Shown here: in pieces, positions 1 to 16,138 of the stretch
Layout of the letters: each line of letters begins with the position of its first letter
Numbering within the stretch: position 1 is the first letter of the stretch
NCBI GenBank assembly: GCA_026985075.1
Contig: JALSQX010000104.1
Location: 1-64,000 of the forward strand
Reading direction: 5' to 3'
DNA: 64,000 bases
Source: Blastocatellia bacterium
GTDB taxonomy: Bacteria > Acidobacteriota > Blastocatellia > HR10 > J050
The notes under the pieces: generated by a model
Database searches by the model: none
What the model was told of the DNA's origin: nothing
What the model saw: only the letters and a program-made list of their open reading frames with translations
Position numbers and translations under genes: made by a program

Positions 1-2
1 AG

Positions 3-119
3 TTGCCCATCTCGTTGGACGAGAATGTGCGCAACGGCCGCATCCGCCGCGGCCAGACCATCCTCATGGTCACCTTCGGCGCCGGCTTCAGCGGCGGTAT
101 CCTCGCCTTCCGATATTAG
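3..119 (+). CDS. 3-oxoacyl-ACP synthase III (FabH-like), C-terminal end only
   Basis: The first 38 codons visible are the end of a gene that starts outside the window. They read LDENVRNGRIRRGQ followed by VTFGAGFSGGILAFRY and a TAG stop. The pattern of a Gly/Arg turn and then a GFGAGxxxG strand is the usual end of FabH-type ketosynthases, which condense an acyl-CoA with malonyl-ACP. The catalytic Cys, His and Asn lie upstream and cannot be seen, so activity cannot be judged. Only 16 bases separate it from the following glycosyltransferase ORF, so it probably heads the lipid/polyketide-like gene block that follows. Confidence 0.7.
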   Translation: MPISLDENVRNGRIRRGQTILMVTFGAGFSGGILAFRY

Positions 120-135
120 CCGCGGCCCGTGAATA

Positions 136-1560
136 GTGATCAGCTCGTCGGCGTCGACATGGAGAAAGACTCTTACCGTGCGGGGAGGCGCCGATGCTCG
201 CGTGACGGTGAAGAAAACCGACGGGGAGCGCGAACGTATCCGATCGAGCGTCCGGGAGCCATCGCCCTACTCTCGTCCCTTCCCTCATCATGATCAATCC
301 TCTTGCCGGAAAACATATCGGATTTTGTTCGCGCCAGCGTCCAACATTCTGGCTCACGTGGGCCGGTGTGTCGTGCTGGCCCGGGAACTGAAGGCGCGGG
401 GACATTCGATCATCTTTGCCGGTACCCCTAAGTTCTTGCGCGATCCGGCGGTCGTTCGCCCGGGCGAGTTTCAAATCCATCTCATCGACGACTATGATGC
501 GGAGGAAGGATTGGAGATTCTTCGTAAGCTGTGGAAGACGCCCCGTAAGGAGTCCCTGCGCGAGCACGTTCAATCCGAACTGGAGATGCTCGATGAGGTG
601 CGGCCGGATGTGGTCATCAATGATTTTCGTTTGACGATGTACCTGTCGGCTCGGCTGCGAGGTATCCCGGTCATCTCGCTCCTCGGGGGGCGCTGGTTGG
701 TCCAATACGCGGCCAAACCGTTCAAAGCACCGCGGACGCATCCCCTCTATCCGCTCATGCGGCGACTCCTGGGGGAGAAGGGCACAGATGCCGTAGTTCC
801 TCCCATCCAGCGATGGGCGATTCGCTACAAGATGGGCCCCTATCGCCAGTTGAGCAAGGCCTATGGACTGCGACCGAAAAGGGATCTCTGGGATCTCCTC
901 GTGGGCGAGTACAATCTCATCTTGGATACCGAGTTGTTCGGGCCGATGAAATCCCTTCCCGGGAACTTTCGTCAGGTCGGCCCGATCGCCTGGACGCCGC
1001 CCATTCCGCTCCCTGACTGGATCGCTACCCTGGATCGTACGCGGCCCATCATCTATGTCACCATGGGCAGTACCGGGCATGCCGCCTTATTCGAATGTAT
1101 GATGGAAGTACTCGGCGATGCCGAGTACACCGTGATCATGACCACCGGGGGGCAGTGGCGCGAGCCGGCCGGTCGGATACCCAGCAATTTCCGCGTGGCC
1201 AAGTATCTCCCCGGCAAACCCATCATGCAGTTGTCGGATCTGGTGATCTTCCATGGTGGAGCGGGGACGGGATATCAGGCCATGGCCACGGGCACTCCGG
1301 CCATCGTCATCGCCACGCACTTGGAGCAGGAATTTGTCGGGCAAGTTTTGGAAGAACATCGAGCGGGACTTTTCCTCACCATGCGTCAGGTGTTGGCCAA
1401 ACCGGTCAGGTTGCGTCAGGCCATCGCCACTATGCTGGCGCGGCTGGATGTCTATCGGGCCGGGATGAAAAAGCTCCAGGAAGACTTTCAGCGGTACGAT
1501 CCTGTGCCCCAGGCGGCCGATTGCATCGAGGAATTCATGGCCGAGGTGCGGCGAGAGTGA
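136..1560 (+). CDS. GT1-family glycosyltransferase (MGT/UGT type)
   Basis: Predicted NDP-sugar-dependent glycosyltransferase of the GT-B fold. The core starts near residue 60 with YRILFAPASNILAHVGRC (first Rossmann half, G-rich substrate side). The C-terminal half carries IIYVTMGSTG and the donor-binding block VIFHGGAGTGYQAMATGTP, where HGGAGT is the usual UGT signature. The first ~59 residues (Arg/Ser-rich) do not look like the family. No in-frame ATG lies between codon 1 and the core, so the true start may be a GTG near 178, 202 or 208. Its TGA overlaps the GTG start of the next gene by 4 bases, which indicates translational coupling in a biosynthetic operon. The acceptor is unknown; a lipid or polyketide-like aglycone is inferred from the neighbours. 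Confidence 0.75.
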   Translation: MISSSASTWRKTLTVRGGADARVTVKKTDGERERIRSSVREPSPYSRPFPHHDQSSCRKTYRILFAPASNILAHVGRCVVLARELKARGHSIIFAGTPKFLRDPAVVRPGEFQIHLIDDYDAEEGLEILRKLWKTPRKESLREHVQSELEMLDEVRPDVVINDFRLTMYLSARLRGIPVISLLGGRWLVQYAAKPFKAPRTHPLYPLMRRLLGEKGTDAVVPPIQRWAIRYKMGPYRQLSKAYGLRPKRDLWDLLVGEYNLILDTELFGPMKSLPGNFRQVGPIAWTPPIPLPDWIATLDRTRPIIYVTMGSTGHAALFECMMEVLGDAEYTVIMTTGGQWREPAGRIPSNFRVAKYLPGKPIMQLSDLVIFHGGAGTGYQAMATGTPAIVIATHLEQEFVGQVLEEHRAGLFLTMRQVLAKPVRLRQAIATMLARLDVYRAGMKKLQEDFQRYDPVPQAADCIEEFMAEVRRE

Positions 1561-2552
1561 ATGCCGTGAACATATTGGTGACTGGCGGAACCGGTCTGGT
1601 GGGGAGCCAACTCATCGAAGCGCTTCTGGAAAAGGGATATCCACCAGATACCATTCGAGCGCTCGTTCGCCCACGGAGTCACATCGACTTTCTCACAGGG
1701 AAAGGCATTCGGCTCTGTACGGGCGATCTGCTCGACGTCGATTCCCTCAAAGCGGCGACCGAGGGGGTCCACATCGTCTATCATTGCGCGGGAGCTGTTG
1801 ATGAGAAGCGGCGCGAGGTGTTCTGGGAAGTGAACGTCATCGGGACCGAGCGGATGCTGGAAGCCGCCCGTTGGGCGGGCGTTCAAAGATTCGTTTACGT
1901 CTCGTCCATTGGCGTCTACGGATTGTTGGAAACGACGCCGGCCACCGAGGATCATCCCACCAGGCCGCTGAGGCCCTACGCCGTGTCCAAGCTGGCCGCC
2001 GAACAGCGCGTGCGACGCTATGCCGAACGATATGGATTGCCCTTTGTCATCCTTCGGCCTACGGCCATCGTTGGCCAGCGCGATCGAACGATCACCAGAC
2101 GGCTCGTGAACCTGGTTCGGCGCCCGGTGGTGCCAATGGTCGGTGGAGGGCGCGCGCGCATCTCGTTCGTTCACGCCAGAGACGTGGCCGAAGCGATGAT
2201 TCGGGCCAGTCACTCGGAGAAGGCCGTGGGGAATGTGTACAATGTGGAAGGGTTCTCGGCTCCCCTTCGCCGGGTGATCCAGTTTTTCATCGACGAGGTG
2301 GGAAGCGGGGCGACGATCATCGATGTTCCTTATGGGCTCGCTTTCATGGGAGCGCTCATCGTCGATGGATTCTACGCCGTGGCCAGACGGCGCGTTCATC
2401 CCATTCGAGCGAGAGTGGGACTCCGCCAATTGACGCGGGACCTGATTTTTGATACAACCAAGATCAAGATGGATCTCAACTTCGAGCCCCAGTATGGTAT
2501 GGAAGAGTCGTTTCGACAAGCGATTCGCTGGCAGTTGCAACATGGTGGTTGA
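1557..2552 (+). CDS. NAD(P)-dependent extended SDR (epimerase/3-beta-HSD-like)
   Basis: Extended short-chain dehydrogenase. It opens with the Rossmann nucleotide-binding motif TGGTGLVG. The catalytic tetrad region follows as VSSIGVYG and then YAVSKLAAE (YxxxK), with the substrate segment LRPTAIVGQ after it. The family oxidises or reduces hydroxyl/keto groups or epimerises sugars. The start chosen is GTG 1557, 8 bases after a GAGGTG Shine-Dalgarno-like stretch and overlapping the upstream stop; GTG 1566 is a close alternative. A second, different SDR follows 3 bases downstream. In a block with a FabH-type enzyme, SDRs of this 3-beta-HSD-like type could reduce a beta-keto intermediate; that is inference. 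Confidence 0.8.
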   Translation: MNAVNILVTGGTGLVGSQLIEALLEKGYPPDTIRALVRPRSHIDFLTGKGIRLCTGDLLDVDSLKAATEGVHIVYHCAGAVDEKRREVFWEVNVIGTERMLEAARWAGVQRFVYVSSIGVYGLLETTPATEDHPTRPLRPYAVSKLAAEQRVRRYAERYGLPFVILRPTAIVGQRDRTITRRLVNLVRRPVVPMVGGGRARISFVHARDVAEAMIRASHSEKAVGNVYNVEGFSAPLRRVIQFFIDEVGSGATIIDVPYGLAFMGALIVDGFYAVARRRVHPIRARVGLRQLTRDLIFDTTKIKMDLNFEPQYGMEESFRQAIRWQLQHGG

Positions 2553-2555
2553 GGT

Positions 2556-3584
2556 ATGAGAGCACTGGTGACGGGCGCCAATGGATTCATCGGTCGCTTC
2601 CTGGTCGAAGCGTTGCTGCGTCGTGGGTGTGCCGTGCGATGCTTCACTCTGGAGGGCGAGAGGGCCGACTGGCCCGACGATGAATCGGTGGAAGTGGTGA
2701 CTGGCGATATTTGTCGGGAGGAGACGCTCACGGCGGCCGTCCAAGGGGTCGATTATGTTTTTCACCTCGCCGGCGTGAAAACGGTCTGGGACGAGGCCAC
2801 CTACTTCCGGATCAATGTTCACGGGACGAAGAATCTTCTCCATGCCCTCCTGGAGAGCGGTCATCGCATCCGGCGATTCGTCTTCGCCAGCAGCCAGGCG
2901 GCTGCCGGGCCGAGCCCGGACGGCCGTCCCATCACCGAGGACGAGGTCTGTCGCCCTCTCACCGCTTATGGCAGGAGCAAGCGAGCCGCCGAGGAGTATC
3001 TCCTCGCTCATCGGCATCGCGTGCCCATCACCATTCTTCGGCCCGTCCTCGTCTATGGGCCGCGGAACCTGGAGACCGAATTGCTGCTGGCTTTGATTCG
3101 CCGAGGATGGATGTTTGACATTGGTCGTCATCATCAGTCGTTCAATCTCATTCACGTGCGCGATGTGGTGCGAGCGTTCATTCTCGCCGCCGAACATCCG
3201 CGAGCCGCGGGCGAGATTTATTTCATCACCAGTCGGGATCGATACACGTGGCGACAGATCGCCGAACAGTCGTTTCGCCTCCAGCATAAAAGGGGCCGCA
3301 TATTCTCCATCCCCTGGACGGGAGTGAAACTGGCCGCCGAAGCCGTCAAATCGTATCGGAAGCTGAGAGGGCAGCCCTTCGATGTGATTGACGATAAGAT
3401 GAACGAGTTGCGTCAAGCACACTGGGTATGCAGCGGGGAAAAAGCCAGACGCCATCTGGGGTTCGAGCCGCAGATCTCACTGGCCCAAGGCATTGAGGAA
3501 ACGATGCGGTGGTATGAGCGACGGCGTCAGGACGAGCGGCCGATGATCGCGGGGGCAGGCGGGAGATGGAGAAAATTCCTGTGA
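2556..3584 (+). CDS. NAD(P)-dependent extended SDR (second copy)
   Basis: Extended SDR of 342 residues. It begins MRALVTGANGFIGRFL (TGxxGxxG cofactor motif), has FVFASSQAAAG ahead of the catalytic YGRSKRAAE (YxxxK), and continues with LRPVLVYGPRNLE, typical of NAD-dependent epimerase/dehydratases. It begins 3 bases after the previous SDR stop and is followed 12 bases later by the methyltransferase, so it belongs to the same transcript. The two adjacent SDRs are clearly diverged from each other, so they probably act at different steps rather than being a recent duplication. Substrate unknown: nucleotide-sugar and beta-hydroxy/keto acyl substrates are both plausible. Confidence 0.82.
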   Translation: MRALVTGANGFIGRFLVEALLRRGCAVRCFTLEGERADWPDDESVEVVTGDICREETLTAAVQGVDYVFHLAGVKTVWDEATYFRINVHGTKNLLHALLESGHRIRRFVFASSQAAAGPSPDGRPITEDEVCRPLTAYGRSKRAAEEYLLAHRHRVPITILRPVLVYGPRNLETELLLALIRRGWMFDIGRHHQSFNLIHVRDVVRAFILAAEHPRAAGEIYFITSRDRYTWRQIAEQSFRLQHKRGRIFSIPWTGVKLAAEAVKSYRKLRGQPFDVIDDKMNELRQAHWVCSGEKARRHLGFEPQISLAQGIEETMRWYERRRQDERPMIAGAGGRWRKFL

Positions 3585-3596
3585 GGAGTGGTGAGC

Positions 3597-4403
3597 ATGA
3601 AATGGCATTCGATCGACCTGTTATGTTGCCCATTTTGTAGGGGACCGGTCGCCCCCTGTGGACAAACGCTCAATGGCGGTGACCCGGTTTCCGAGGGGAC
3701 GCTCATCTGTGAGACGTGTCACCGCGCATTCGCGATCGAGAGGGGCATCGTTCACTTCCTTCAGACTGACGAACTCGTGGGACCGAACAAGAAGCACGCC
3801 AGATTGAACGACCTATTCTCCCACGTGTACACACCGACGGTGAAGCTCATGTTCGCGCTCTGTGGTGGAGAAGAGCGCGCCCGGTGCGAGTGCATGGATC
3901 GTTTGGAACTCCGTGAAGGCGCTCACATCCTGGAGGTGGGCATTGGGACGGGAGACAATCTCCCCTATCTTCGCCGCCGACTCCACCGGTTTCGGGTCTA
4001 CGGCGTCGATATTTCGAGGAGCATGTTGCGGCACTGTGAAGCCAATATGAAAAAATGGGGGGTAGAGGCCGAATTGTTTTTGGCCGAAGCCGAACGGTTG
4101 CCGTTCAAAGATGGGACATTCGATGTCGTGTTTCATATCGGAGCGATCAATTTCTTCACCGATAAGAAGCGGGCCATCGAAGAGATGATTCGCGTCGCGC
4201 GACCGGGGACCAGGATCATCATCGCCGATGAGAACGAGCGGGCATTGCGGGTCCTGGACAAATTCCTTCTCCAACTGTGGATCGGCAAGCGAGAGAAGGT
4301 CGTCCCTCCCATCGATCTGGTGCCGCAGACGATGCGAGAGATTCGATTGGAGACCATCTGGCGAGGGTATGGTTATTGCATCGCATTCCGCACGCCCCGG
4401 TGA
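3597..4403 (+). CDS. SAM-dependent methyltransferase with N-terminal Trm112-like zinc ribbon
   Basis: The N-terminus (residues 1-50) carries CPFC and CETC pairs around DLLCCPFCRGPV, a zinc-ribbon of the Trm112/YcaR type. The class I methyltransferase domain starts near residue 100, with motif I EVGIGTGDN and motif II acid in YGVDIS. The AEAERLPF stretch and the post-motif VARPGTRIIIAD are typical of UbiE/small-molecule methyltransferases. ATG 3597 is preferred because GAGGAG lies 8 bases upstream; a GTG at 3588 would add three residues. The next gene's ATG (4369) lies inside its 3' end, a 35-base overlap. Likely a tailoring C- or O-methyltransferase of this gene block. Confidence 0.8.
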   Translation: MKWHSIDLLCCPFCRGPVAPCGQTLNGGDPVSEGTLICETCHRAFAIERGIVHFLQTDELVGPNKKHARLNDLFSHVYTPTVKLMFALCGGEERARCECMDRLELREGAHILEVGIGTGDNLPYLRRRLHRFRVYGVDISRSMLRHCEANMKKWGVEAELFLAEAERLPFKDGTFDVVFHIGAINFFTDKKRAIEEMIRVARPGTRIIIADENERALRVLDKFLLQLWIGKREKVVPPIDLVPQTMREIRLETIWRGYGYCIAFRTPR

Positions 4404-5244
4404 GCGGTTCGCGCCAGGTAGGGCCCATCGCCGATCTGCGGAGGCCAACACCGTGTTTTCCCTGTTTCGAGAGCGAGGAGATGAGATCATCCGGGCCAGC
4501 TACGCTCAACGCATCTTGATGGACGTGCTGGATGCGGCGCGGCGACCCGATAGTTATGCCGTCATTCTGTTGGATCTGTCGGCGGCCGATGCCTTCCGCG
4601 CGGAGTACCGCAAGAAGCATGGCGTGGCCTTGACCCACGTTCATCTCCTCATCAAAGCGCTCGCCCGGATGCTGGAGAAGAATCCCTGGATGAACTACAT
4701 GGTGGATGGATATAAGATCGTGAAGCCGTCATCCATCGATATCGGCGTCTCGGTCGCCGCCGAAGAGGGCGTGACGCCGGTGGTCGTCATCCGGGAGGCC
4801 CATCGAAAGTCACTGAGAGAGATCAGCCAGGAACTCCGGCAGAAGGCGAGCCAGGCCGCCCAGATGGAGAAGCAGAACCTGGCTCGGTTGAATCGCATCG
4901 GTCGCCTGATCCCGATCGGTTTTCTGCGACGGCCGCTCATTCGTTTCCTCGCTCGGCGGTACTGGGTGCGACGGCGCTTCATCGGCACGGCTCAAATCAC
5001 CAGCCTCGGCTTCCGCGATCTGGCCTTTCACCTTCCCTCTCATATCGGGACGACGATGTTGCTCAGCGTCGGCGGAGTCGTTCGGCGACCGGTGGTGGTC
5101 GGCGATAAGATCGAGATTCGTCCCACCGCCTATCTCGCTTTTCAGGTGGATACGCGCGTGTTGAACGCCAAGAGGGCGTTGAGGGCATTTCGACAGTTTC
5201 GACGATGGATGGAGCATCCGGATCAACTGGAGGGCGATGAGTGA
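4369..5244 (+). CDS. 2-oxoacid dehydrogenase E2-like acyltransferase-fold protein, catalytic His replaced
   Basis: The protein resembles the catalytic (chloramphenicol-acetyltransferase-fold) domain of lipoate acyltransferases. Visible features are HVHLLIKALARML (the HLxxLIKA-like segment), the WMNYMVDGYKIV turn, IDIGVSVAAEEGVTPVVV, and the C-terminal AYLAFQVDTRVLNAKRA. No lipoyl or E1/E3-binding domain is present. In true E2 enzymes the last segment reads DHRVxDG with the catalytic His; here the equivalent is DTRVLNA, so the His and the DG are missing. It may be a non-catalytic homologue or use another mechanism. ATG 4369 overlaps the upstream gene; a GTG near 4453 is also possible. It sits between a methyltransferase and a condensation-type acyltransferase. 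Confidence 0.65.
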   Translation: MVIASHSARPGERFAPGRAHRRSAEANTVFSLFRERGDEIIRASYAQRILMDVLDAARRPDSYAVILLDLSAADAFRAEYRKKHGVALTHVHLLIKALARMLEKNPWMNYMVDGYKIVKPSSIDIGVSVAAEEGVTPVVVIREAHRKSLREISQELRQKASQAAQMEKQNLARLNRIGRLIPIGFLRRPLIRFLARRYWVRRRFIGTAQITSLGFRDLAFHLPSHIGTTMLLSVGGVVRRPVVVGDKIEIRPTAYLAFQVDTRVLNAKRALRAFRQFRRWMEHPDQLEGDE

Positions 5245-5625
5245 GATGAGAGGGATGACCGTCTCGCCGCCCGCGAAGCCGTGGTTTGACGGACAACATC
5301 TCGTCGAGCGCCTGGATGGGGTGACGTTGTCGCTGCCCACGAGGTGCGAAAGGTCGGTGCCCCTGGGCAGTACGGCCATCACACGCTGGTCGAGTTACGT
5401 TCGCTTCAATGGTTATATCGCCCGTTCGCGGCTCATGGGGGTGGGGAAACGGTTTCCGGGGACGCGTGCTCCGGGCTTCTCTCTCGCGCCCCCGGGGAGT
5501 GGTCAACGTCCACTCGGCGCACCGGCCCCGGAGAGGGTGTGGTTGACGAGCTGTGGGACTCGTGGAATAATAGCCCCTCCTTCCTGCCCGGGGATGGATC
5601 GGAGAGGTGACAGAGACCATCGATA
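5245..5625 (+). other. Uncertain stretch between two acyltransferase genes
   Basis: This 381-base stretch holds an open plus-strand frame (5237-5626, 129 codons) whose ATG overlaps the previous stop in ATGA-like fashion. The first ~35 residues read like protein (FDGQHLVERLDGVTLSLP), but the rest is Arg/Pro/Gly-rich and resembles no family I know. The coding signal seems to jump to the frame starting near 5344 (YGHHTLVELRSLQWLYRPF). It could be a short real gene with a frameshift, or untranslated spacer. I do not assign a function. Confidence 0.25.
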
Positions 5626-7086
5626 ATGGCTCGCTCGTTGAGAGAACAACATCATACCGTTCGGAGAATTCCCTTTGTGGGGAGCGATAAGCTCATCTAC
5701 GCCATCGATGGCGTTTCTCCCTTCATGCTCCATCTCATCATGGAACTCAATGGGCCGTTGGACGTCGCTTGTCTGGCCGAGGCCATCGAAGGAGCGCTCG
5801 AAGCGACGCCCGTTCTGAAGAGCCGGGCACGGTTACGGTGGCTTCGCCCTTATTGGGAGGTGATCGAGGATGTCGCGTTGGAGACCATATTGACCGTGCG
5901 AGATCTCACCTCGGAGAGCGCGCGCGACGATGCCATTCGACGCCTGATCGAAGCGTTCCTCAATGAGACGATCGATGTGACGCAGTCGGCTCCGGCGCGA
6001 TTCCTCTTGATGCGATTGTCGGATGCCCAATGGGTGTTCGTCATCAAAGTGCATCACTGTCCGATCGATGCCGCCGCCCTGTTCATCTTCGTCAACGATA
6101 TCAAAACGTATTATGAGCGGCTCCGTGACGGCCGGATGATTGGACCACTGGCGTCCATGGGAGATCGGACGCGGCGCCCGCTATTTCGTCAGGTGAGCGT
6201 ATCGTTGTGGGGACGAGCGGCGTGGGCCGCTCTCCGGCGCGCCCTGAGCGACCGGTCATCGCGGCCCCGCCAGTTCATCGCGTTCTCTGCGCCGGAGAGC
6301 GAGCCGGGGATCGCTTACCGGAGCGTGGTATTGGAAGGCGAAGACTACGCGGCCTTCCGCGCCAGGTGCAAATCCCTGGGCGTGACCGGTCAAGAATTGA
6401 TCATGGCGGCGCTCTGTCGAGCCATTCACCGGTGGAATAGGGCGTCGGGCCGGACCGCGGGCGTCTATTCGATCATCATGCCGGTGGACCTGCGACGTTA
6501 TGTTCGACGAGGAGGGCGTATTCCCAGAATAATGGCCAGCTTCGTGGGCGGCACTCAGATCACCATTCCCGCTGCCGCGGCCGAGACGCTGGAGGGGGCG
6601 CTCGCTCTGATCGTCGAAGAGGTGCGATACATCCGGACGCATCACCTGGCATTGATGCCCAATGTGATCTTTCCTCTCCTCGCCCTCATCCCCGCCCGGT
6701 GGCTTCGCCGGGCCGCCCGGCGCGTTTACCGGCGCCGCCCGGAGAAGTTGATTCCCACCGCCGTCGTGACCAACGTGGGCCGAGTGGATAGAATTCTCTC
6801 GCCATCTCCGAGGTTCCCTATTCGACGCCTGGAGGGCGTAGGGACGGCCTATGTTCCGGCGGGATTGTTCGTGGCTCCTTTGTCCTTCGGGCGGTGGCAA
6901 ACGATTACCATCACCTACCGAAAGGATGCCTGTTCGGAGGAGGAGATGACGTCATTCGTCGAGCTCTTCGCCGACGAGCTTCTTCCTGGGCGTCGAGCCC
7001 GGCGCGGCCTGACCGGTGCAGTCTCTTCCTCATCATCGGAAAGGAGCGAGTGTGACGTCGACCATGTGTGCCTCAGGGAGGAATGA
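5626..7086 (+). CDS. Condensation-fold acyltransferase (WS/DGAT or PapA-like)
   Basis: A 486-residue protein whose N-terminal half carries KVHHCPIDAAAL, i.e. the HHxxxD active-site motif (H143, H144, D148) of condensation/wax-ester-synthase/PapA acyltransferases; the usual Gly after the Asp is Ala. An SxPxDLR-like segment is seen as IIMPVDLRRYV in the C-terminal half, and a NVGRVD motif typical of this fold follows. Such enzymes transfer acyl groups from CoA or carrier proteins to hydroxyl groups. The start is a plain ATG. The last codons overlap the next gene at ATGATG. In context it probably esterifies the product made by the FabH/SDR enzymes. Confidence 0.72.
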   Translation: MARSLREQHHTVRRIPFVGSDKLIYAIDGVSPFMLHLIMELNGPLDVACLAEAIEGALEATPVLKSRARLRWLRPYWEVIEDVALETILTVRDLTSESARDDAIRRLIEAFLNETIDVTQSAPARFLLMRLSDAQWVFVIKVHHCPIDAAALFIFVNDIKTYYERLRDGRMIGPLASMGDRTRRPLFRQVSVSLWGRAAWAALRRALSDRSSRPRQFIAFSAPESEPGIAYRSVVLEGEDYAAFRARCKSLGVTGQELIMAALCRAIHRWNRASGRTAGVYSIIMPVDLRRYVRRGGRIPRIMASFVGGTQITIPAAAAETLEGALALIVEEVRYIRTHHLALMPNVIFPLLALIPARWLRRAARRVYRRRPEKLIPTAVVTNVGRVDRILSPSPRFPIRRLEGVGTAYVPAGLFVAPLSFGRWQTITITYRKDACSEEEMTSFVELFADELLPGRRARRGLTGAVSSSSSERSECDVDHVCLREE

Positions 7087-7847
7087 TGAGCGACGCGGTG
7101 ATCCATGACGACAAACCTCATATCTCGGTCATCATCCCCGCATATAATGAAGAGAAGTATCTCGGAGCGACGTTGGAGAATGTCAAGCAAGCCATCCGAG
7201 AATATCAAAAGAAATATCCCTACGCCGTCGAGATTGTGGTCGTCAACAATAATTCCACCGATCGCACCGAGCAAGTCGCTCGCGCCCATGGAGCCCGGGT
7301 CGTTTTCGAGGCGAGGAATCAAATTGCGGCGGCGCGAAATGCCGGCGGTCGAGCGGCCCGGGGCGACATCGTCGCTTTTCTGGATGCCGATTCGCACATG
7401 TCCCCCAATTTGCTCATCCGCGTTCACGAGGTGATGGCCTCCGGGCAATATATCGGCGGTGGCGTGGCCTGGGTGTACCGGGATAAACCCTCGTTGTGGG
7501 TGAGCATCCTGGAGACGATCCGGAACGTGATCGGACGCCGCGTATTCGGCGTGAGTACGGGGCTCATGTACACGACCAAAGAGGCCTTCGAGCGCGTCGG
7601 CGGGTTCGATGAACGCTATTACGCCGCCGAGGAGGGGCGATTCGTGCTCGACTTGAAGAAGCTGGGGAAGAAAGAAGGGAAGAAGTTTTATAACATCACC
7701 GATGGATACATTGTGACCTCGGCGCGCAAGTTCGAACAACTGAACGCACCGACGCTGATATGGACGGGATTGAAGTTCCTCCTGTTCCCCTGGAAGCTCA
7801 GAGATCGTAAAGCCTGCTCATTCTGGTATGACATCAACAAGAATTGA
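7086..7847 (+). CDS. GT2-family glycosyltransferase
   Basis: Family 2 (GT-A) glycosyltransferase of 253 residues. It shows HISVIIPAYNEEKYLG (nucleotide-binding start), VVNNNSTDRTEQVA, the metal/sugar-nucleotide motif FLDADSHMSPN (DxD type), and GGFDERYYAAEEGRF, which carries the acidic catalytic-base region. There are no clear transmembrane spans apart from a short hydrophobic end (LIWTGLKFLLFPW). It therefore probably acts at the inner face of the membrane. ATG 7086 is preferred, 5-7 bases after AGGGAGG; the ATG at 7083 is in frame and equally possible, and both overlap the upstream stop. It is followed 16 bases later by the first of three AlkP-superfamily genes. Confidence 0.83.
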   Translation: MSDAVIHDDKPHISVIIPAYNEEKYLGATLENVKQAIREYQKKYPYAVEIVVVNNNSTDRTEQVARAHGARVVFEARNQIAAARNAGGRAARGDIVAFLDADSHMSPNLLIRVHEVMASGQYIGGGVAWVYRDKPSLWVSILETIRNVIGRRVFGVSTGLMYTTKEAFERVGGFDERYYAAEEGRFVLDLKKLGKKEGKKFYNITDGYIVTSARKFEQLNAPTLIWTGLKFLLFPWKLRDRKACSFWYDINKN

Positions 7848-7863: not shown

Positions 7864-9570
7864 ATGAGCGACCGCGTTGTGGTCATCTGTCTGGATGGAG
7901 CGACATTTGATCTGCTCCGTCCATGGATGGAAGCGGGATATCTGCCCACGTTGAAGCGCTTCATGGAGGAGGGCATCAGTGGAGAGTTGGAGTCAGTCAT
8001 CCCGCCCATCACCGCGCCGGCGTGGGCCTCCTTCATGACCGGGAAGAACCCCGGCAAACACGGCGTGTATCATTTCATCAATCGCCGCGCCTCATCGGCG
8101 GGACAATCGTTCGTCAGCGCCGCCTCGCGGGCGGGGAAGGTTCTCTGGGAGTTGCTGGGCGAAGAGGGGAAGACCGTGCTCGTACTCAATGTGCCCACCA
8201 CCTATCCGCCGCAGAAAGTCAATGGGGCGCTCATCAGCGATTTTCTCACTCCGCCGGGGAGGCGAGATTTCACCTATCCTCCCTCGTTGGTCGATGAGCT
8301 CGAGGAGAAGTTCGGTCCATATCCACTTCACTTCAAGACGCTCATGTTCTCGGCCAATCTCTCGCCATCCAACGCCCAGCGGTTGCTCGAGGAAGTGCAT
8401 CGCGAGTTGCGGATCAAGTTCGACGTCGCTCATTATCTCTGGGATCGATACGAGAGCGACTTCACCATTCTTCACATATTGGGGACCGATCGTCTTCAAC
8501 ACGAGTTCTGGAATCTGCTCGATGCGCAGCATCCCCTCTATGATCCCTCGATGAGTCGGCGCTTTCGGGAAGCCATCCGCGACTATTTCGTTCGCGTGGA
8601 TGCCGAGATCGACCGGCTCTGTCGGAAGATCGGCCGGGAAGCGACGACGTTCATCATCTCCGATCATGGGTTTGGACCGGCGTATAAGGCGATCGATCTC
8701 AATGTGTGGCTTCTGGAGCAGGGCTACATACAGGTCAAGTCGGAGGCGCGCTCTCGACTCAAATTCCGACTCTGGAAGATGGGATTGACCAATGAGCTCT
8801 TCATTCGGCTGTCGTTGCGCACATTCTTCAAATACGGAGCGGGGCTGGTGGAGAGGGTTCCCGAAGAATCCATGTTCAAATCCATTCGATTCTTCCTGCA
8901 ACGTGGTCGACGCTATCCCCTCTTCTCGCTCGGCGATGTCGATTGGTCGCGGACGAAAGCCTACGCGCTGGTGGGTATGGGAGCCATCAACATCAATCTG
9001 GAGGGGCGCGAGCCCACCGGATCGGTCAAGCCGGGGCGCGAGTACGAGGCATTGAAACAAGAGATCGCCGACAAGCTCCGAGCGATGATCGATCCGGAGA
9101 CGGGACAGCGGGTGAATGGTCGCGTCTTCTTGCGCGAACAGATTTATCGAGGACCGTACGTTGCTCAGGCTCCGGACATCGTGTTCTTGCCCAACGAGCA
9201 GGGATATGTGGCCGGGAGCATGATGGGATTCACCTCCAATCGATCGATCGTCCCCGTGCCCGCCTGGCCGGGAAATCATCGCCAGAACGGAATCCTCCTG
9301 GCCAGAGGCCGCTCTCTTCGGAAGGGAGAGCGCATCCAGGGGGCGCGATTGATCGATCTGGCGCCGACGCTCCTTTATCTCATGGGGAGCCGCATTCCCC
9401 GGGACATGGACGGGCGCGTCTTGACGACCATATTCGAACCCGATGTCGTGGCTCGTCGAGGAGTAGCGTATCGCGACGAGGAGCCGGTGACCTCTGAAGT
9501 TCCCCATCCCGGTTCGGAAGATGAGCAGCAGGTCATCGAGCGACTCAAGGACCTGGGATATTTGATGTAA
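7864..9570 (+). CDS. AlkP-superfamily type I phosphodiesterase/nucleotide pyrophosphatase, paralogue 1
   Basis: A 568-residue phosphodiesterase-like protein of the alkaline phosphatase superfamily. The N-terminus has the first metal Asp in VVVICLDGATFDLL. It is followed by IPPITAPAWASFMTGKNPG, whose Thr is the expected nucleophile. Later come LGTDRLQHEFW, the metal motif ISDHGFGPAY and GNHRQNGILLARG. All metal ligands expected for the NPP branch appear present. There is no signal peptide, so it is probably cytoplasmic. Two further paralogues lie at 11126 and 13569 with the same motif order. In-frame ATG 7828 is possible, but ATG 7864 starts at the conserved core. The substrate is unknown; these proteins often sit in polysaccharide/glycolipid gene sets. 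Confidence 0.8.
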   Translation: MSDRVVVICLDGATFDLLRPWMEAGYLPTLKRFMEEGISGELESVIPPITAPAWASFMTGKNPGKHGVYHFINRRASSAGQSFVSAASRAGKVLWELLGEEGKTVLVLNVPTTYPPQKVNGALISDFLTPPGRRDFTYPPSLVDELEEKFGPYPLHFKTLMFSANLSPSNAQRLLEEVHRELRIKFDVAHYLWDRYESDFTILHILGTDRLQHEFWNLLDAQHPLYDPSMSRRFREAIRDYFVRVDAEIDRLCRKIGREATTFIISDHGFGPAYKAIDLNVWLLEQGYIQVKSEARSRLKFRLWKMGLTNELFIRLSLRTFFKYGAGLVERVPEESMFKSIRFFLQRGRRYPLFSLGDVDWSRTKAYALVGMGAININLEGREPTGSVKPGREYEALKQEIADKLRAMIDPETGQRVNGRVFLREQIYRGPYVAQAPDIVFLPNEQGYVAGSMMGFTSNRSIVPVPAWPGNHRQNGILLARGRSLRKGERIQGARLIDLAPTLLYLMGSRIPRDMDGRVLTTIFEPDVVARRGVAYRDEEPVTSEVPHPGSEDEQQVIERLKDLGYLM

Positions 9571-9704: not shown

Positions 9705-10919
9705 ATGAGAGGGACGCGACGGTTCGCAGGCAGGATGATCGGCACGGTGACGCTCATCGTGGCCCTGAGCGTCATCAGCATGGCTCCGGGAGCGTCCGTC
9801 AGATGGGTCTCGCCCCGGACGGTACAGGGAAGCGGGTTGGTCTGGACGCCGGTGATGACCGGTGGATTCGGCAATCCGGGAAATAAGTTGCTGCGCGGGC
9901 TTCAGGTTTTTCAAGGTCGCCTCTATGCGATCACCTTCAACGACCAAGGAGGGGAAGTTTACCGATCGGTGACGCTCGATCCCCTCACCTGGGAGAAGGT
10001 GGTGGATGCCGGTTTCCTCTCCTCGGGGAATGCATTCGCTCCCAAGTTCCGTTCGCTGCGAGCGTGGGCCGGTCAGTTATTCGTGGGCACGGGATTCCGT
10101 CGCTCCGATGGCGCTCAGATCTGGCGGTCGTTCGATGGAGCTGTCTGGACGCTCTCTTTCGACAGTGGAGAGTTGGGGAACGGCCCGACGTTGAACGTTC
10201 GGGCGATGGCGCCGTTTGGCGATTATCTCTATATCGGGACGGGCGCTGAGTTCGTGGGCACGGCGCAGATCTTCCGTTCGCGCACCGGGCGGGAATGGGA
10301 GCCGGTGGTCGATGATGGGTTCGGTCTCCAACGAGGCAATAACAATATCTATTCGCTCGGCGTGTTCGATGGGCGACTGTATGCTGGAACGTTCAATGTG
10401 CGCGGAGCGGAGGTCTATCGCTCCGATGACGGGCGAACGTGGGAGCGCGTCGCCACCCGCGGCATAGGAGATCGGCGTAATCTCTACATCTACGAACTGC
10501 GCGTCTATCAGCCGACGCCCGAATCGATGCCTCGATTGATCGCCATCACCGGTCCCAATCCGTCAGGTGGACAGGTGTGGGCCTATGATGGTGAGAGCTG
10601 GTCGCTGTTCGCTCCTCCGGGGTTCGGCAATCGGCGCAATACCGACATGTGGCAAGCCAATCAGTTCGGTCGCGATTTCTATGTCGGAACGTTCAAGGAG
10701 GAGTTCCGACCGGGATCACAGCTCTCGGACGAGGACGGTGCCGAACTCTGGCGTTACGATGACGCGACCGGTCAGTGGATGCCCGAGACGCTGGACGGCT
10801 TCGGCAATCCCAATAACACGGGCATTCGAACGATTTTCGCCTGGAACGGGGCATTGTATGTGGGAACGTTGAACGAAGAGACCGGCTGCGAGCTCTGGCG
10901 GGGAGTCCCAGCCAGGTAG
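9705..10919 (+). CDS. Secreted beta-propeller-like protein
   Basis: The start at ATG 9705, after a GTGAGGAGAG Shine-Dalgarno-like stretch, gives a signal peptide (MRGTRRFAGRMIGTVTLIV with an Ala-rich end). The mature part is built from repeats containing GGFGNPGN, FQGRLYAITFN, GRLYAGTFN and GALYVGTLN, each with a Tyr-x-Gly-Thr strand and a paired VYRSDDG or IWRSFDG (Asp-box-like) turn. This is the pattern of a six- or seven-bladed propeller. No catalytic motif is recognisable. It is probably periplasmic or surface-exposed. It lies between two AlkP paralogues on the same strand and may bind the polymer or lipid made by this block. Function unknown. Confidence 0.65.
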   Translation: MRGTRRFAGRMIGTVTLIVALSVISMAPGASVRWVSPRTVQGSGLVWTPVMTGGFGNPGNKLLRGLQVFQGRLYAITFNDQGGEVYRSVTLDPLTWEKVVDAGFLSSGNAFAPKFRSLRAWAGQLFVGTGFRRSDGAQIWRSFDGAVWTLSFDSGELGNGPTLNVRAMAPFGDYLYIGTGAEFVGTAQIFRSRTGREWEPVVDDGFGLQRGNNNIYSLGVFDGRLYAGTFNVRGAEVYRSDDGRTWERVATRGIGDRRNLYIYELRVYQPTPESMPRLIAITGPNPSGGQVWAYDGESWSLFAPPGFGNRRNTDMWQANQFGRDFYVGTFKEEFRPGSQLSDEDGAELWRYDDATGQWMPETLDGFGNPNNTGIRTIFAWNGALYVGTLNEETGCELWRGVPAR

Positions 10920-11125: not shown

Positions 11126-12832
11126 ATGGAACAGAAAGTGATCATCATCGGGTTGGACGGTGCCACTTTCGATGTGCTCGGGCGCTGGATGGCCGACGGT
11201 CGATTGCCTCATCTCAAGGCGCTGGTGGCCGAGGGCGTCAGCGGCGAGTTACGATCTTCGGTGCCGCCGGTCACCGCGCCCGCTTGGGCCTCGTTCATGA
11301 CGGGGAAGAATCCGGGGAAGCATGGCGTGTTCGATTTCGTCATTCAGGATAAGACGACCTATCAGTTCCATCCGGTGGATTCGCGCTCCTGTCGGGCGAG
11401 GACGCTCTGGGAGGTCATCGGCGATGAGGGAGGGCGCGTCGTCGTGTTGAACGTGCCGCTGACCCATCCGCCGTATCCGGTCAATGGCGCGCTCATCAGC
11501 GACTTTCTGCTGGCCCGCGGTCGTGGAGAGAAGAGTTTTCCTCCCCAGCTACTCGGAGAGATCGAGGAGCGATTCGGTCCCTATCACCCGGATACCGTGC
11601 TCCCTTATTTTGTCGCCAGTCAGACCGACGAGGATGTGGCCCGGTTCATCGGCGAGTACGCGCGGGCTGTCGAATATAAGTTTCAGGTGGCCCATGACCT
11701 CTGGGAGCGCGTTCAGCCCGATTTTCTCATGCTCCACTTGTACGGGAATGATCAGATCTGCCACTGGCTGTGGCACGTGTTCGACCCGACTCATCCGTGG
11801 CATCGTCCTGGGGACGCGGAGAAGCACCTGGAGACGATCCTGGAATACTACCGAACGTTCGACCGCGAGATCGGAAAGCTGCTGGACCGCGTTCACGGCG
11901 ATGTGACGTTGTTCATCATCTCGGATCACGGATTCGGGCCGGTCTATAAGGCGCTCGATTTGAACACCTGGCTTTATCAGCGAGGATACCTCGTGTTGAA
12001 GAATCGACCGGTGACTCGATTCAAGCGGCTCTGCTGGCAGGCGGGATTGACGCCTACGACGCTGCTCCAGCAGAGGTGGATCCGGAAGGGGCTAGCCCTG
12101 CTGGCCGGTCGCGTGTTGAGGGATCGTTCGCAGGGCGGCGTCGAGCAGGTCCAAAAAGCCCACACCCTGGGTCAACTGCTCCTTTCATTCCATGACATCG
12201 ACTGGTCGCGGACACGGGCGTTCTCTCCGTTCGGGTTCGGTCAGATTCGCATCAACGTGCGCGGGGAGTGGGCCGAAGGCTGCGTCTCTCCCGGGGATGA
12301 GTACGAGCGCCTCAAGCGAGAGTTGGTCGACCAGTTGCGAGCGCTGACAGATCCCGAGACGGGGGAATCCCTTGACGGAGCCGTGTTCACTCGGGAAGAG
12401 CTTTATCGGGGCGATTATCTGGCCGAAGCGCCGGACATCTTCTTCGTCCCGGTGAATGGAAAATATCGTCCCAAGAGCACCGGATTCACTTCCAATGCGG
12501 CCATCTCTTCTTTTTGGGGCATGAGCGGCATTCATAAGATGAATGGCTTGCTCATCGGGCGCGGGGCGGCGCTTCGTTCGGGCGCGCGCATCGATGGAGC
12601 GGAGATCATCGATATCTTCCCTTCCGTTCTCTACCTGATGGGGATGCCCATCCCCGAAGACGTTGACGGTAAGGTGTTGCAGCACATGTTCACTGGCGAG
12701 TTCGTTCATCGACATCCGATCCGATTTGCCGAGCGGACGACCTCATCGGAGAGAGCGTCGGCCGGAGAGACCGTCGCCGCGGAGGAAGAGGAGGTCCTCG
12801 ATCGCTTGCGGGGATTGGGATATTTGGATTGA
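11126..12832 (+). CDS. AlkP-superfamily phosphodiesterase/nucleotide pyrophosphatase, paralogue 2
   Basis: The second of three related phosphodiesterase-like proteins (568 residues from ATG 11126). It repeats the signature order: IIIGLDGATFDVLGRW, then VPPVTAPAWASFMTGKNPG with the nucleophile Thr, YGNDQICHWLW, ISDHGFGPVYKALDLNTW and GIHKMNGLLIGRG. The NHR motif of paralogues 1 and 3 is IHK here, so the final His is kept but its neighbours differ. The C-terminus ends RLRGLGYLD, matching the common LKxLGYL tail of all three. The 206-base gap upstream holds an unconvincing 61-codon frame (10938-11123). It is followed 6 bases later by the VTT-domain gene, suggesting co-transcription. Confidence 0.8.
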   Translation: MEQKVIIIGLDGATFDVLGRWMADGRLPHLKALVAEGVSGELRSSVPPVTAPAWASFMTGKNPGKHGVFDFVIQDKTTYQFHPVDSRSCRARTLWEVIGDEGGRVVVLNVPLTHPPYPVNGALISDFLLARGRGEKSFPPQLLGEIEERFGPYHPDTVLPYFVASQTDEDVARFIGEYARAVEYKFQVAHDLWERVQPDFLMLHLYGNDQICHWLWHVFDPTHPWHRPGDAEKHLETILEYYRTFDREIGKLLDRVHGDVTLFIISDHGFGPVYKALDLNTWLYQRGYLVLKNRPVTRFKRLCWQAGLTPTTLLQQRWIRKGLALLAGRVLRDRSQGGVEQVQKAHTLGQLLLSFHDIDWSRTRAFSPFGFGQIRINVRGEWAEGCVSPGDEYERLKRELVDQLRALTDPETGESLDGAVFTREELYRGDYLAEAPDIFFVPVNGKYRPKSTGFTSNAAISSFWGMSGIHKMNGLLIGRGAALRSGARIDGAEIIDIFPSVLYLMGMPIPEDVDGKVLQHMFTGEFVHRHPIRFAERTTSSERASAGETVAAEEEEVLDRLRGLGYLD

Positions 12833-12838
12833 GCGCTT

Positions 12839-13546
12839 ATGAGGTTCGTGCGACAGTATGCCAGGACGGCGGCCAAGCTCATCGTGGTGCTCGCCATCGT
12901 CCTCGCGGTTCGATATGCCTTCCTGAACGGGATCATCGATCGGACCGGCCTTCAGCGAATGCTCGATCAGGCGGGCATCCTGGCCATCCCTGGATTCATT
13001 CTGATGATGGCCGCTGCCATCATGGTCTTCGTGCCCGCGTGGATATTCATCGGGTCGGCGTCCATCGCGTTTGGCGCTCGTTGGGGAGCGGCGTACTCGA
13101 TGCTCGGAGCGATACTCGGGACGAGCGCCGCCTTTCTCCTGGGTCGCTATCTGGCCTCTGATTTTGCCGAGAGGCAGAGGCAACGCCGATTGCGGCATAT
13201 CAACGAATGGTTGGAAGCCAATGGCATCGTCCTCACGCTCTGCGCCCGACTGGTGTTTTACTGTCATTCGGCATTCAATTACGCGGCCAGCGTCACCTCG
13301 GTGAGGTTCAGGGACTATGTCATTGGGACGTTCGTTGGCCTTCTGCCGGGCATCATTCTCTTCTCCAGCGTGTTCGATGTGCTGGTGAGAGCGGATTCGC
13401 TCGTCGACTTTCTCACTCATCCGGCGCTGATCCTGCTATGGAGTTTGCGGATTGGCGGGGGGATGTTATTCTCTTTGCTGGTCAAAAGGTCCAGCGAGCG
13501 AAAGCGCGCCGAGCGGGGTTATCTGTTGGGGATTCACAAGCAGTAG
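12839..13546 (+). CDS. TVP38/TMEM64 (VTT-domain) membrane protein
   Basis: A 235-residue polytopic membrane protein. Hydrophobic spans are visible at about residues 12-30, 47-68, 75-100 (FGARWGAAYSMLGAILGTSAAF, the G-rich VTT core), 125-155, 160-185 and 195-215. The pattern of FG-x-x-G followed by G-x-x-x-G, a charged cytoplasmic loop (RQRQRRLRHINEW) and an Arg in the re-entrant half is typical of DedA/TVP38 proteins. Relatives act in lipid scrambling or undecaprenyl-phosphate recycling. It sits between two AlkP genes, so a role in moving the lipid carrier or product across the membrane is a reasonable inference. Confidence 0.75.
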   Translation: MRFVRQYARTAAKLIVVLAIVLAVRYAFLNGIIDRTGLQRMLDQAGILAIPGFILMMAAAIMVFVPAWIFIGSASIAFGARWGAAYSMLGAILGTSAAFLLGRYLASDFAERQRQRRLRHINEWLEANGIVLTLCARLVFYCHSAFNYAASVTSVRFRDYVIGTFVGLLPGIILFSSVFDVLVRADSLVDFLTHPALILLWSLRIGGGMLFSLLVKRSSERKRAERGYLLGIHKQ

Positions 13547-13568
13547 TCACGGCGAAGGAGGAATGAGG

Positions 13569-15257
13569 ATGGCGAATAAAGTGGTTATCGTGGGGTTGGA
13601 CGGAGCGGGATTTCAAACGCTTCAACCGTGGATGGACGCCGGTCATTTGCCCACGCTGCGGGAGATGATGAAGCGGGGCACCAGTGGCTGTCTGACGTCG
13701 ATCGTCCCGCCGGTGACGGCGCCCGCCTGGTCATCATTCATGACCGGAAAAAACCCGGGCAAGCATGGCATCTATTACTTCACCACCCGGGATAAGACCA
13801 CGGGCCGCGAGGTGCCGGTGAGCGCCTATTCCCGTTCGGGGAAGACGCTTTGGGAACTCCTCAGTGAGAGCGGGAAGACGGTCACCGTATTGAATGTGCC
13901 CACGACGTATCCTCCGAGTCCGGTCAACGGCATCATGGTGGCGGGATTCCTGACGCCCAAAGGGAAACGGGATTTCGTCTATCCCCCTTCGTTGCTCGAT
14001 GAGATCGAGGGCGCGTTCGGACCCTATCCGTTGTATCTGAAGACGAATTTCACCGCCAACCTGTCCGAGGCCAATGTCGAGCGGTTCCTGGCCGAACTGG
14101 AGCACGAGCTCCAGTACAAGTTCGCCGTCCTCCATTATCTCATGGACCGGTACCCGGCCGACTTCACCATGGTCCATATCTGGGGCACGGATCGCATTCA
14201 ACACGATCTGTGGAATCTCTTCGATGAGGCTCATCCGCGCTACGATCCGGTGTTGAGCGCCAAGTACAAGGAGCGCATCATCGGCTATTTCTCGGCCGTC
14301 GATGCTCAGATTGCCCGGTTGCGGGAGCGATTGGATGACGAGACGACGCTCATCATCATGTCGGATCATGGATTCGGGCCCATTCATCGATTCATCGATT
14401 TGAACGTGTGGCTCCTGGAGCAGGGATACATCGCTATCAAGGAGACGCCCCTTTCGCAATTCCGCTTGCGCGCCTGGAAGATGGGATTGACGTACGAATT
14501 CTTCATTCGGGGATTGTTGTGGCTCATGAAGTGGGGCGTCCGGTTACCCGATCGCACGCCGGCCGATGCCGTCAATCTCATCCGCGAAGAAGGGTTTCAG
14601 CCGTTGCTGTCGCTTCGGGATGTGGATTGGTCGCGCACCAAGGCGTACAGCAAATTCGGATTGGGTCAGATCGTCATCAATGTGGAGGGGCGCGAGCCGA
14701 GAGGGTCGGTCAAGCCGGGCGCCGAATATCGGGCGGTGAGAGATGAGATCGTGGAGAAGCTGAAACAGTTGCGCGATCCGGCGACGGGGCGGGTGATCGG
14801 CGGTCAGGTGTACACCAAAGAGGACGTCTACAGCGGTCCTTATCTCGATGAGGCACCGGACATCACCTACTTGCCGATGGAGAGCAACTATCTGGCTAAC
14901 GTCCTCATGGGATTCACGACGAGGCATTGGATCATGGACAATCCCGTCCTGTTCGGCAATCATCGCATGGAGGGGGTGATCATTGTGGAAGGGAAGGACG
15001 TCCGGCCGGGTGGTTGGTTGAGCGAAGCGAGCATTCTGGATGTCGCTCCGACCGTCCTCTATGCCATGGGAGAGCGAATCCCGCGGGATATGGATGGCCG
15101 CGTTCTCACCGAGCTGTTCGTCCCGGAGTTCCTCAATCGACGGCCAGTGGAATGGCGAGACGCCGAAGATGCCGCATCACCGGCGAAGGCGGGAGCGCTC
15201 TCGCGCGAGGACGAAGAGACGATTCTCGAACGCTTGAAGGGATTGGGGTATTTATGA
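13569..15257 (+). CDS. AlkP-superfamily phosphodiesterase/nucleotide pyrophosphatase, paralogue 3
   Basis: The third paralogue (562 residues). Motifs are VVIVGLDGAGFQTLQPW, VPPVTAPAWSSFMTGKNPG (nucleophile Thr), WGTDRIQHDLW, MSDHGFGPIHRFIDLNVW and FGNHRMEGVIIVEG. It is closer to paralogue 1 than to paralogue 2 in the middle region (QGYIAIKE-type linker, DVDWSRTKAY). ATG 13569 is chosen because AAGGAGGA lies about 7 bases upstream; ATG 13563 is too close to it. The stop overlaps the start of the CmoB-like methyltransferase (ATGA). Upstream and in frame runs a tail out of the VTT gene that is not part of this protein. Confidence 0.8.
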   Translation: MANKVVIVGLDGAGFQTLQPWMDAGHLPTLREMMKRGTSGCLTSIVPPVTAPAWSSFMTGKNPGKHGIYYFTTRDKTTGREVPVSAYSRSGKTLWELLSESGKTVTVLNVPTTYPPSPVNGIMVAGFLTPKGKRDFVYPPSLLDEIEGAFGPYPLYLKTNFTANLSEANVERFLAELEHELQYKFAVLHYLMDRYPADFTMVHIWGTDRIQHDLWNLFDEAHPRYDPVLSAKYKERIIGYFSAVDAQIARLRERLDDETTLIIMSDHGFGPIHRFIDLNVWLLEQGYIAIKETPLSQFRLRAWKMGLTYEFFIRGLLWLMKWGVRLPDRTPADAVNLIREEGFQPLLSLRDVDWSRTKAYSKFGLGQIVINVEGREPRGSVKPGAEYRAVRDEIVEKLKQLRDPATGRVIGGQVYTKEDVYSGPYLDEAPDITYLPMESNYLANVLMGFTTRHWIMDNPVLFGNHRMEGVIIVEGKDVRPGGWLSEASILDVAPTVLYAMGERIPRDMDGRVLTELFVPEFLNRRPVEWRDAEDAASPAKAGALSREDEETILERLKGLGYL

Positions 15258-16138
15258 GTCGGTATCGGCGGGCGATCGCTCTCCTGAAGGAAACGATCGA
15301 CCGAGCGGTCGCCGCGAGGGCTCGCGCCCGCACCGCCTGTCCTCACCTGCCTCCACCATCTCCGGAGCCGATCGCCCGGGCCGAAGCCGTGTTCTCCAAT
15401 GTCTTCCCCATCTCTCCCCAATGTGGGCTGACGCCGCAAGAGATTGAGAGAGAGATCGAGAGGTACTTCTGGCATTATCCCTTCGAGTTCGGTGGTCGTC
15501 TGATCGATGCCCATCATGTGGGCTTCAGAGGTCTCCGCGGTCGCCACTATCGGCGATATCTGCATATTTTCCCTGCGCTCCTCTCCTTGACGGGAGGCAC
15601 ATTGGCTGGATACACGGTGCTCGATGTGGGGTGTAATGCCGGGTTCTGGTCGATTCAGGCTCGATTGGCGGGGGCCGAACGCGTGCTCGGCGTGGATGCC
15701 AGTCAGCAGAATATCGATCAGGCGCGATTCATCATCCGGGTGACGGGACTGGATGGCATCGACTATGTGGTGATGAGTGCCTATGGGATCTCGAAACGAC
15801 GGATTGGGGAGTTCGATATCGGTCTCTTCTTAGGTTTGCTCTATCACCTGGATAAACCTCTCATGGCGCTGGAGCGCCTCTACGAAGTGACGAGGAAGAT
15901 CGTCGTCATCGATACGCGAGTCACCTGGTCCAGGAGAGCTCGGCTCACCCTGAGAGCGGACGTCGTTCATGACCAGAACGTCACCAGTGGACTCGCCTTC
16001 GTGCCTTCTCCGAAAGCGGTGATCTGGATGCTCCATCATGTCGGATTTCGCCAGATTTATGTGATCCCCAGAACGACGCTTCGCCTCCCGCCGGACTATC
16101 TGCTCGGCCTTCGCAAGGCGTTCGTGGCGATGAGATAG
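15254..16138 (+). CDS. CmoB-like/DUF1698 SAM-dependent methyltransferase
   Basis: A 294-residue class I methyltransferase. Before the SAM domain it has FWHYPFEFGGRLIDAHHVG and the substrate-binding RHYRRYLHIFPALL. Motif I is VLDVGCNAGFWSIQA, the acidic loop is VLGVDASQQNIDQA, and GLFLGLLYHLDKP is the motif IV region. This order matches CmoB/DUF1698 proteins, which normally act on tRNA wobble uridine. The distant gene context here suggests a natural-product methylase instead. ATG 15254 overlaps the stop of AlkP paralogue 3 (ATGA). It is the last gene of the plus-strand block and faces the minus-strand sigma-factor operon; no clear terminator hairpin is visible in the 133-base gap. Confidence 0.75.
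   Translation: MSRYRRAIALLKETIDRAVAARARARTACPHLPPPSPEPIARAEAVFSNVFPISPQCGLTPQEIEREIERYFWHYPFEFGGRLIDAHHVGFRGLRGRHYRRYLHIFPALLSLTGGTLAGYTVLDVGCNAGFWSIQARLAGAERVLGVDASQQNIDQARFIIRVTGLDGIDYVVMSAYGISKRRIGEFDIGLFLGLLYHLDKPLMALERLYEVTRKIVVIDTRVTWSRRARLTLRADVVHDQNVTSGLAFVPSPKAVIWMLHHVGFRQIYVIPRTTLRLPPDYLLGLRKAFVAMR

Follow-up and report, generated by a model that had tools for sequence, protein, structure and literature searches.

A putative glycolipid gene block with a conserved FabH-GT1 pair in a Blastocatellia genome

The stretch considered here is a 64,000-nucleotide window (G000:C104:1-64000) of a Blastocatellia genome (GenBank assembly GCA_026985075.1, contig JALSQX010000104.1), which begins at base 1 of a 98,773-base contig and opens with a block of 14 coding regions, all on the plus strand according to domain scans and checked reading frames (Table 1). 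The block comprises module A, from a FabH-like gene to a gene for a PapA-fold acyltransferase (about 1-7086), and module B, from a GT2 glycosyltransferase gene onward, with AlkP, VTT and methyltransferase genes. We read module A, at about even probability, as a pathway to a glycolipid, in which a chain started by a beta-ketoacyl-acyl carrier protein synthase III (KAS III) would be glycosylated by the glycosyltransferase GT1 and then acylated and methylated, with module B acting downstream of it or beside it. The FabH-GT1 pair appears to be the constant core of such clusters, the tailoring genes having changed between families.

Module A and the FabH-GT1 core among genomes

Module A is collinear in all three genomes of the family seen, i.e. 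the genome of the window (G000), a close relative (G001) and a family-level relative (G002), with FabH complete in G002 only. The G002 order is the same, FabH-GT1-SDR-SDR-MT-E2-PapA-PapA, including two short-chain dehydrogenases/reductases (SDR), a methyltransferase (MT) and a protein with the acyltransferase fold of the E2 components of 2-oxoacid dehydrogenases. Identities between G000 and G002 are 63% (GT1), 61% (SDR1), 60% (SDR2), 62% (MT1), 79% (E2-fold) and 42% and 45% for the two PapA-fold proteins, which G002 encodes as a tandem pair (L030:16098-17474 and 17441-18943) against a single gene in G000 and G001. The same block is found in G001 on a 15,793-base contig, where MT2 runs off the contig end. 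Between G000 and G001, dN/dS is 0.07-0.25 in 11 of the 13 gene pairs, those compared in frame, which indicates that the block genes are constrained.

A search with FabH at E<=1e-50 finds 4 of 396 genomes of the phylum, namely G002 plus three members of the sister family (f3); G000 gives no match at this threshold because its gene is cut. FabH is present in five of the six f3 genomes seen, the sixth (73% complete) being without it, as is G003 (78% complete) of family f2. GT1 follows FabH directly in all five f3 carriers, at 50-53% identity. In the domain-scanned f3 members G005 and G006, GT1 is followed by a GT2, a methyltransferase (two in G005), a sulfotransferase, a GT2, a sub-cut-off sulfotransferase match and a GT4, with a YchF GTPase further on; in G004, compared by its open reading frames (ORFs), the layout is similar. 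In the 40 kb read, none of these three genomes matches the window SDRs, E2-fold, PapA-fold or AlkP proteins at the 1e-6 level. Since FabH-GT1 is constant and its neighbours have changed, the comparison suggests a glycolipid with a lineage-variable outer part, and the sulfotransferases of the f3 clusters suggest a sulfated relative of the product. Genes of the sulfotransferase family lie within the FabH-GT1 clusters L064:2831-10544 (G005) and L066:8032-13873 (G006).

The same clusters bear on another explanation, a surface glycan pathway in which the SDRs would make nucleotide sugars, GT1 and GT2 would build the glycan and FabH would only supply an acyl group for the acyltransferase. The match of the SDRs to Epimerase and GDP_Man_Dehyd models is consistent with it, as is the wealth of GT2, GT4, sulfotransferase and methyltransferase genes in the scanned f3 clusters. 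However, the sister family keeps FabH-GT1 and not the SDRs, and Pfam scans of cluster genes gave no polymerase or O-antigen-flippase family, so we regard a surface glycan as unlikely.

Farther away, in G126, a genome of a distant family, an E2-fold gene is followed by a GT1 (32% identity), after which come two GT2s, a protein that matches hexapeptide models weakly and a methyltransferase. No FabH, SDR or PapA match occurs in the 16 kb read there, the FabH query being the 38-residue end only, and its best KAS III lies on another contig. Around the GT1 matches in G136, G153, G206 and G410, the 3.6-4.2-kb loci checked contain nothing that matches FabH, SDR or E2 at 1e-6. At E<=1e-20, the PapA-fold protein has matches in 2 genomes out of 247.

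A wider proposal, which we hold tentatively and at well below an even chance, is that a dedicated KAS III-GT1 pair starts a hitherto undescribed kind of glycolipid characteristic of this order of Acidobacteria. It would have a constant core and family-specific decoration (acyl and methyl groups versus sulfate and more sugars), and in one set of clusters the E2-fold protein, which lacks the catalytic His, would serve as a non-catalytic platform or perform new chemistry. No description of such a cluster was found in the literature searched, a body that leaves most subscription journals outside its scope. To our knowledge, the link of Acidobacteria lipids to genes is incomplete. If the proposal is true, an assignable locus would help tie these lipids to genes, FabH-GT1 would be a specific two-gene marker for a lipid of a little-known order, and the E2-fold protein would offer a testable case of such a fold recruited without its catalytic residue.

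The FabH gene and the contig end

Over its first 127 bases the window agrees exactly with the start of another contig of this genome, C6, and diverges from it thereafter; FabH N-termini also sit at contig ends, on C65 of G000 and on C56 and C286 of G001. Because of this identity and these contig ends, FabH appears to be multi-copy and the assembly broken there; the left edge of the window is an assembly break, and FabH seems to be a collapsed repeat of at least two near-identical copies. On C6 the copy is followed by an intervening stretch, an ORF with a sub-cut-off acetoacetate decarboxylase match, an SDR, a PlsC-type acyltransferase and a patatin.

The complete orthologue in G002 (L030:9812-10804) contains the ACP_syn_III domains PF08541 and PF08545, and its residues C117, H257 and N287 align with the catalytic triad of solved FabHs, which places it among KAS III enzymes. 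Cys-His-Asn is likewise present in all five sister-family orthologues. The G002 protein falls below the cut-offs of the models for canonical housekeeping FabH (TIGR00747, 177.9 versus 292.1 bits; NF006829, 201.9 versus 249). G000 possesses another KAS III (C67:15350) near a FabF-type gene (C67:13143), and since that copy is close to a gene of this type, the FabH of the cluster looks like an extra one.

Proposed pathway

From gene content, order, conservation and catalytic motifs we infer which reactions take place, in what sequence and with what product, as follows. A dedicated KAS III would join an acyl starter to a malonyl extender and so yield a beta-ketoacyl product. Reduction of keto groups to hydroxyls may then fall to one of the SDRs or to both, or one of them may make a nucleotide sugar; GT1 would add a sugar to a hydroxyl, the Trm112-methyltransferase would methylate, and the PapA-fold enzyme would acylate the sugar or the chain. 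The E2-fold protein without His could be a non-catalytic partner, e.g. an oligomeric platform or an acyl-carrier docking subunit, or have changed its chemistry. Module B would act on phosphate-linked lipid or sugar intermediates, downstream of module A or beside it, with the VTT protein perhaps recycling polyprenyl-phosphate.

Solved relatives of GT1 are YjiC, CalG4 and oleandomycin glycosyltransferase. The PapA-fold proteins have HHxxxD in all four copies, with the usual following Gly replaced by Ala or Pro, and this motif together with the PF00668 fold match assigns the window protein to the superfamily of wax ester synthase/diacylglycerol acyltransferase (WS/DGAT), PapA and condensation enzymes; the WS/DGAT model TIGR02946 itself gives 1.7e-9, with 37 bits against a cut-off of 310.

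Several points weigh against the glycolipid pathway. The full FabH of G000 is not assembled, the window holding 38 codons only. HpnA, OleD and sugar-epimerase-type models are the best matches of the SDRs, all below cut-off, and do not fix the substrate. The scanned ORFs of the block (about 90 amino acids upward) lack any domain typical of an acyl-CoA ligase, a thioesterase, an acyl carrier or an exporter; among the intergenic gaps, that between the E2-fold and PapA-fold genes alone could hold a carrier protein. Module B starts about 12.6 kb past the last PapA gene in G002 and is absent near the FabH-GT1 pairs of G004, G005 and G006.

The initial annotation had named an acylated, glycosylated, methylated lipid as the simplest product of the whole 16-kb stretch. 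For the FabH-to-PapA half this product remains the simplest, given collinearity in the three family genomes and FabH-GT1 in five of six f3 genomes, but the stretch is not one conserved unit, in view of the distance between the modules in G002, of AlkP1, which has no relative at E<=1e-60 in any of the six f3 genomes, and of the other clusters that AlkP paralogues form in the same genomes.

Comparison with known systems

In mycobacterial loci of the phenolic glycolipid (PGL) and phthiocerol dimycocerosate (PDIM) type, a PapA-fold acyltransferase, a GT1-type glycosyltransferase, a methyltransferase and a reductase tailor a lipid chain. The window block shares this set. However, its scanned ORFs contain no polyketide synthase (PKS) domain, which separates it from type I PKS systems, and the chain starter would be KAS III; the whole G000 genome has two Ketoacyl-synt_C matches. 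In rhamnolipid synthesis by RhlAB, a GT1-type enzyme acts on a hydroxy-fatty acid. The likeness lies in that GT1-type step, proposed here as the key one, whereas the block has a dedicated KAS III and several tailoring enzymes, and no hydrolase-fold domain in the scanned ORFs.

The OleABCD pathway of long-chain olefins combines a thiolase-fold condensing enzyme with a 3-beta-HSD-type SDR. The block shares condensing enzyme and SDR, and adds glycosyltransferase, methyltransferase and PapA genes. OleABCD was rejected as an identity for the block, the OleD model giving 120 and 104 bits against 580 and no hydrolase or AMP-ligase domain occurring in the scanned ORFs. A glycosylated, acylated hopanoid or sterol, considered for the likeness of the SDRs to HpnA and sterol-type SDRs, is very improbable: HpnA is indeed the best NCBIfam match of both SDRs, but its 154 and 139 bits fall short of the cut-off, 368, and the cyclase family PF13243 is matched in none of five genomes (G000, G001, G002, G004 and G006) compared with 2 of 14 control genomes. 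With no squalene-hopene cyclase match in the five genomes, this product was rejected.

The E2-fold protein

The motif DHxxxDG, expected of E2 components of 2-oxoacid dehydrogenases, reads DTRVLNA in all three cluster orthologues (G000, G001 and G002), His being replaced by Thr and Asp by Asn. The more distant homologues of G126 (DHKTLNG) and G303 (DHAIVDG) keep the His and the full motif, respectively. The window protein has the same catalytic-domain fold (PF00198) as the E2 components, but it stands alone, has an Arg-rich insert of about 25 residues and has lost the catalytic His; no lipoyl or E1/E3-binding domain was found in it, Pfam giving PF00198 only. It is nevertheless the most conserved full-length protein of module A between genera, the 38-residue FabH stub alone being higher, and G000 and G001 share 92% identity at dN/dS 0.11. 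This dN/dS and the 79% identity to G002 indicate that the protein is retained despite lacking the standard catalytic base.

That it is an ordinary acyltransferase is quite unlikely. The fold match and the resemblance in sequence to solved E2 cores favour such a function, whereas both substitutions occur in every cluster orthologue, while the homologues in G126 and G303 retain the His and the whole motif, respectively. The initial annotation counted two acyltransferase-fold proteins in the block; the PapA-fold protein is a probable acyltransferase, but the other is this E2-fold protein lacking the catalytic His.

In 58 relatives, strong matches to the E2-fold protein are confined to G000, G001 and G002; 55 of the 58 match at E<=0.001 in all, the rest of the matches being weak and looking like ordinary E2s. 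Its profile at E<=1e-12 finds 4 of 396 genomes of the phylum (G000, G002, G126 and G303), G001 not being among the matches listed, and in the class of G126 that genome alone matches at E<=1e-25 (1 of 38). A contig search, which finds close relatives only, yielded one relative, a sister metagenome-assembled genome. The structure prediction for this protein has a mean pLDDT of 36 with a two-row alignment, and was not used.

Module B

In G002, module B shares contig and strand with module A and comprises genes for VTT (43% identity), GT2 (73%), AlkP1 (68%), an FG-GAP protein and AlkP2 (62%). The FG-GAP protein occupies the place of the 9705-10919 protein of the window, and the two are not alignable. 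The interval between the modules contains extracytoplasmic function (ECF) sigma factor and tetratricopeptide repeat (TPR) genes, alongside a further AlkP gene, a GT2, an FG-GAP and a short gene with an AlkP domain.

AlkP1, AlkP2 and AlkP3 of the window match PF01663 with all five motif patterns for metal ligands and nucleophile, and thus belong to the AlkP superfamily; they have no hydrophobic segment. In AlkP1 of G002 the first of the five patterns is unmatched. Relatives of AlkP1 at E<=1e-60 are found in 17 of 58 genomes (G000 included), with 10 to 11 copies in each of three family members, and AlkP paralogues cluster elsewhere in the same genomes, several in tandem on other contigs. Contig C20 of G000 has two additional KAS III genes with an AlkP gene less than 5 kb away, and after these KAS III genes come a hexapeptide protein, a GT2 and FG-GAP/UnbV proteins; by this locus, KAS III, GT2 and AlkP recur together in G000. 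Counted at E<=1e-60, five AlkP genes lie near a pair of KAS III genes at G000 C20:96438-116614 and four at G002 C50:34719-60781.

We read module B as linked to module A yet separable from it. The two modules might instead be unrelated neighbours, module A making a glycolipid and module B being a separate polysaccharide or envelope module that lies downstream by chance. This is possible, if doubtful. It would account for the long G002 interval with its ECF, TPR and other genes and for AlkP1 homologues that are widespread, multi-copy and partly tandem elsewhere. However, the modules share strand and contig in all three family genomes seen, the G002 interval itself holds AlkP, GT2 and FG-GAP genes, the PapA and GT2 genes overlap in the window, and C20 likewise combines KAS III genes with a GT2, a hexapeptide protein and AlkP genes.

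Gene layout of the block and flanking regions

The genes named in the initial annotation are all present on one strand; its list omits the protein at 9705-10919. Its "many start/stop overlaps" overstated the packing: with the chosen starts, 3 of 13 junctions are overlaps (4 nt each), five are gaps of 3-16 nt and five are gaps of 49-381 nt.

Table 1. Coding regions of the block, in window coordinates
Product	Position	Strand	Features
FabH-like KAS III, C-terminal 38 codons	3..119	+	Cut by contig end; 89% identity to C-terminus of complete G002 FabH
GT1 glycosyltransferase (EryCIII/GT28-C fold)	208..1560	+	PF06722 6.7e-15; exact start uncertain, homology from near 283
Extended SDR 1 (Epimerase/3Beta_HSD)	1557..2552	+	PF01370; GxxGxxG and YxxxK present
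Extended SDR 2	2556..3584	+	GxxGxxG and YxxxK present
Trm112-like zinc ribbon fused to class I methyltransferase (MT1)	3588..4403	+	PF03966 and PF13649; two CxxC pairs
E2-fold protein (2-oxoacid dehydrogenase acyltransferase catalytic domain), stand-alone, without catalytic His	about 4453..5244	+	PF00198 2.1e-22; start inferred from G002
Condensation/WS-DGAT/PapA-fold acyltransferase	5626..7086	+	PF00668 3.4e-17; HHxxxD present, next Gly is Ala
GT2 glycosyltransferase with DAD motif	7083..7847	+	PF00535 2e-28; 4-nt overlap with PapA gene
AlkP-superfamily phosphodiesterase 1 (AlkP1)	7864..9570	+	PF01663 1.5e-40
Protein with N-terminal hydrophobic segment (secreted-type)	9705..10919	+	Family matches sub-cut-off only; 91% identity in G001
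AlkP-superfamily phosphodiesterase 2 (AlkP2)	11126..12832	+	PF01663 1.1e-41
VTT/DedA-type membrane protein	12839..13546	+	PF09335 1.6e-18; four hydrophobic segments
AlkP-superfamily phosphodiesterase 3 (AlkP3)	13563..15257	+	PF01663 1.4e-46; 92% identity in G001
Methyltransferase (MT2), TIGR04290/CmoB-like	15254..16138	+	Below cut-offs of both models

Two reading frames were not taken as they stand. A 129-amino-acid ORF at 5237-5626 was rejected as a conserved gene: it has no family match, and the gap between the E2-fold and PapA-fold genes measures 381 nt in G000 versus 153 nt in G001. We interpret the match of its last 28 residues to G001, at 75% just 5' of PapA, as conservation of DNA. In the 485-amino-acid ORF at 1095, the first 150 residues are taken as an out-of-gene extension, SDR1 probably starting near 1557.

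Beyond the block, the minus strand at 16272-18423 encodes an ECF sigma factor, a zinc-finger anti-sigma-like protein and a secretin short-domain protein, and another GT1/GT28-type gene lies on the plus strand at 18969-20237. A type I restriction-modification island (N6 methylase, specificity subunit and HsdR) with a Schlafen/AlbA_2 protein occupies 21418-36683, and includes a 1658-amino-acid ORF (24602-29578) and a 521-amino-acid ORF at 29527, both without a Pfam family at 1e-5. Two tRNA-Arg genes lie just beyond this island.

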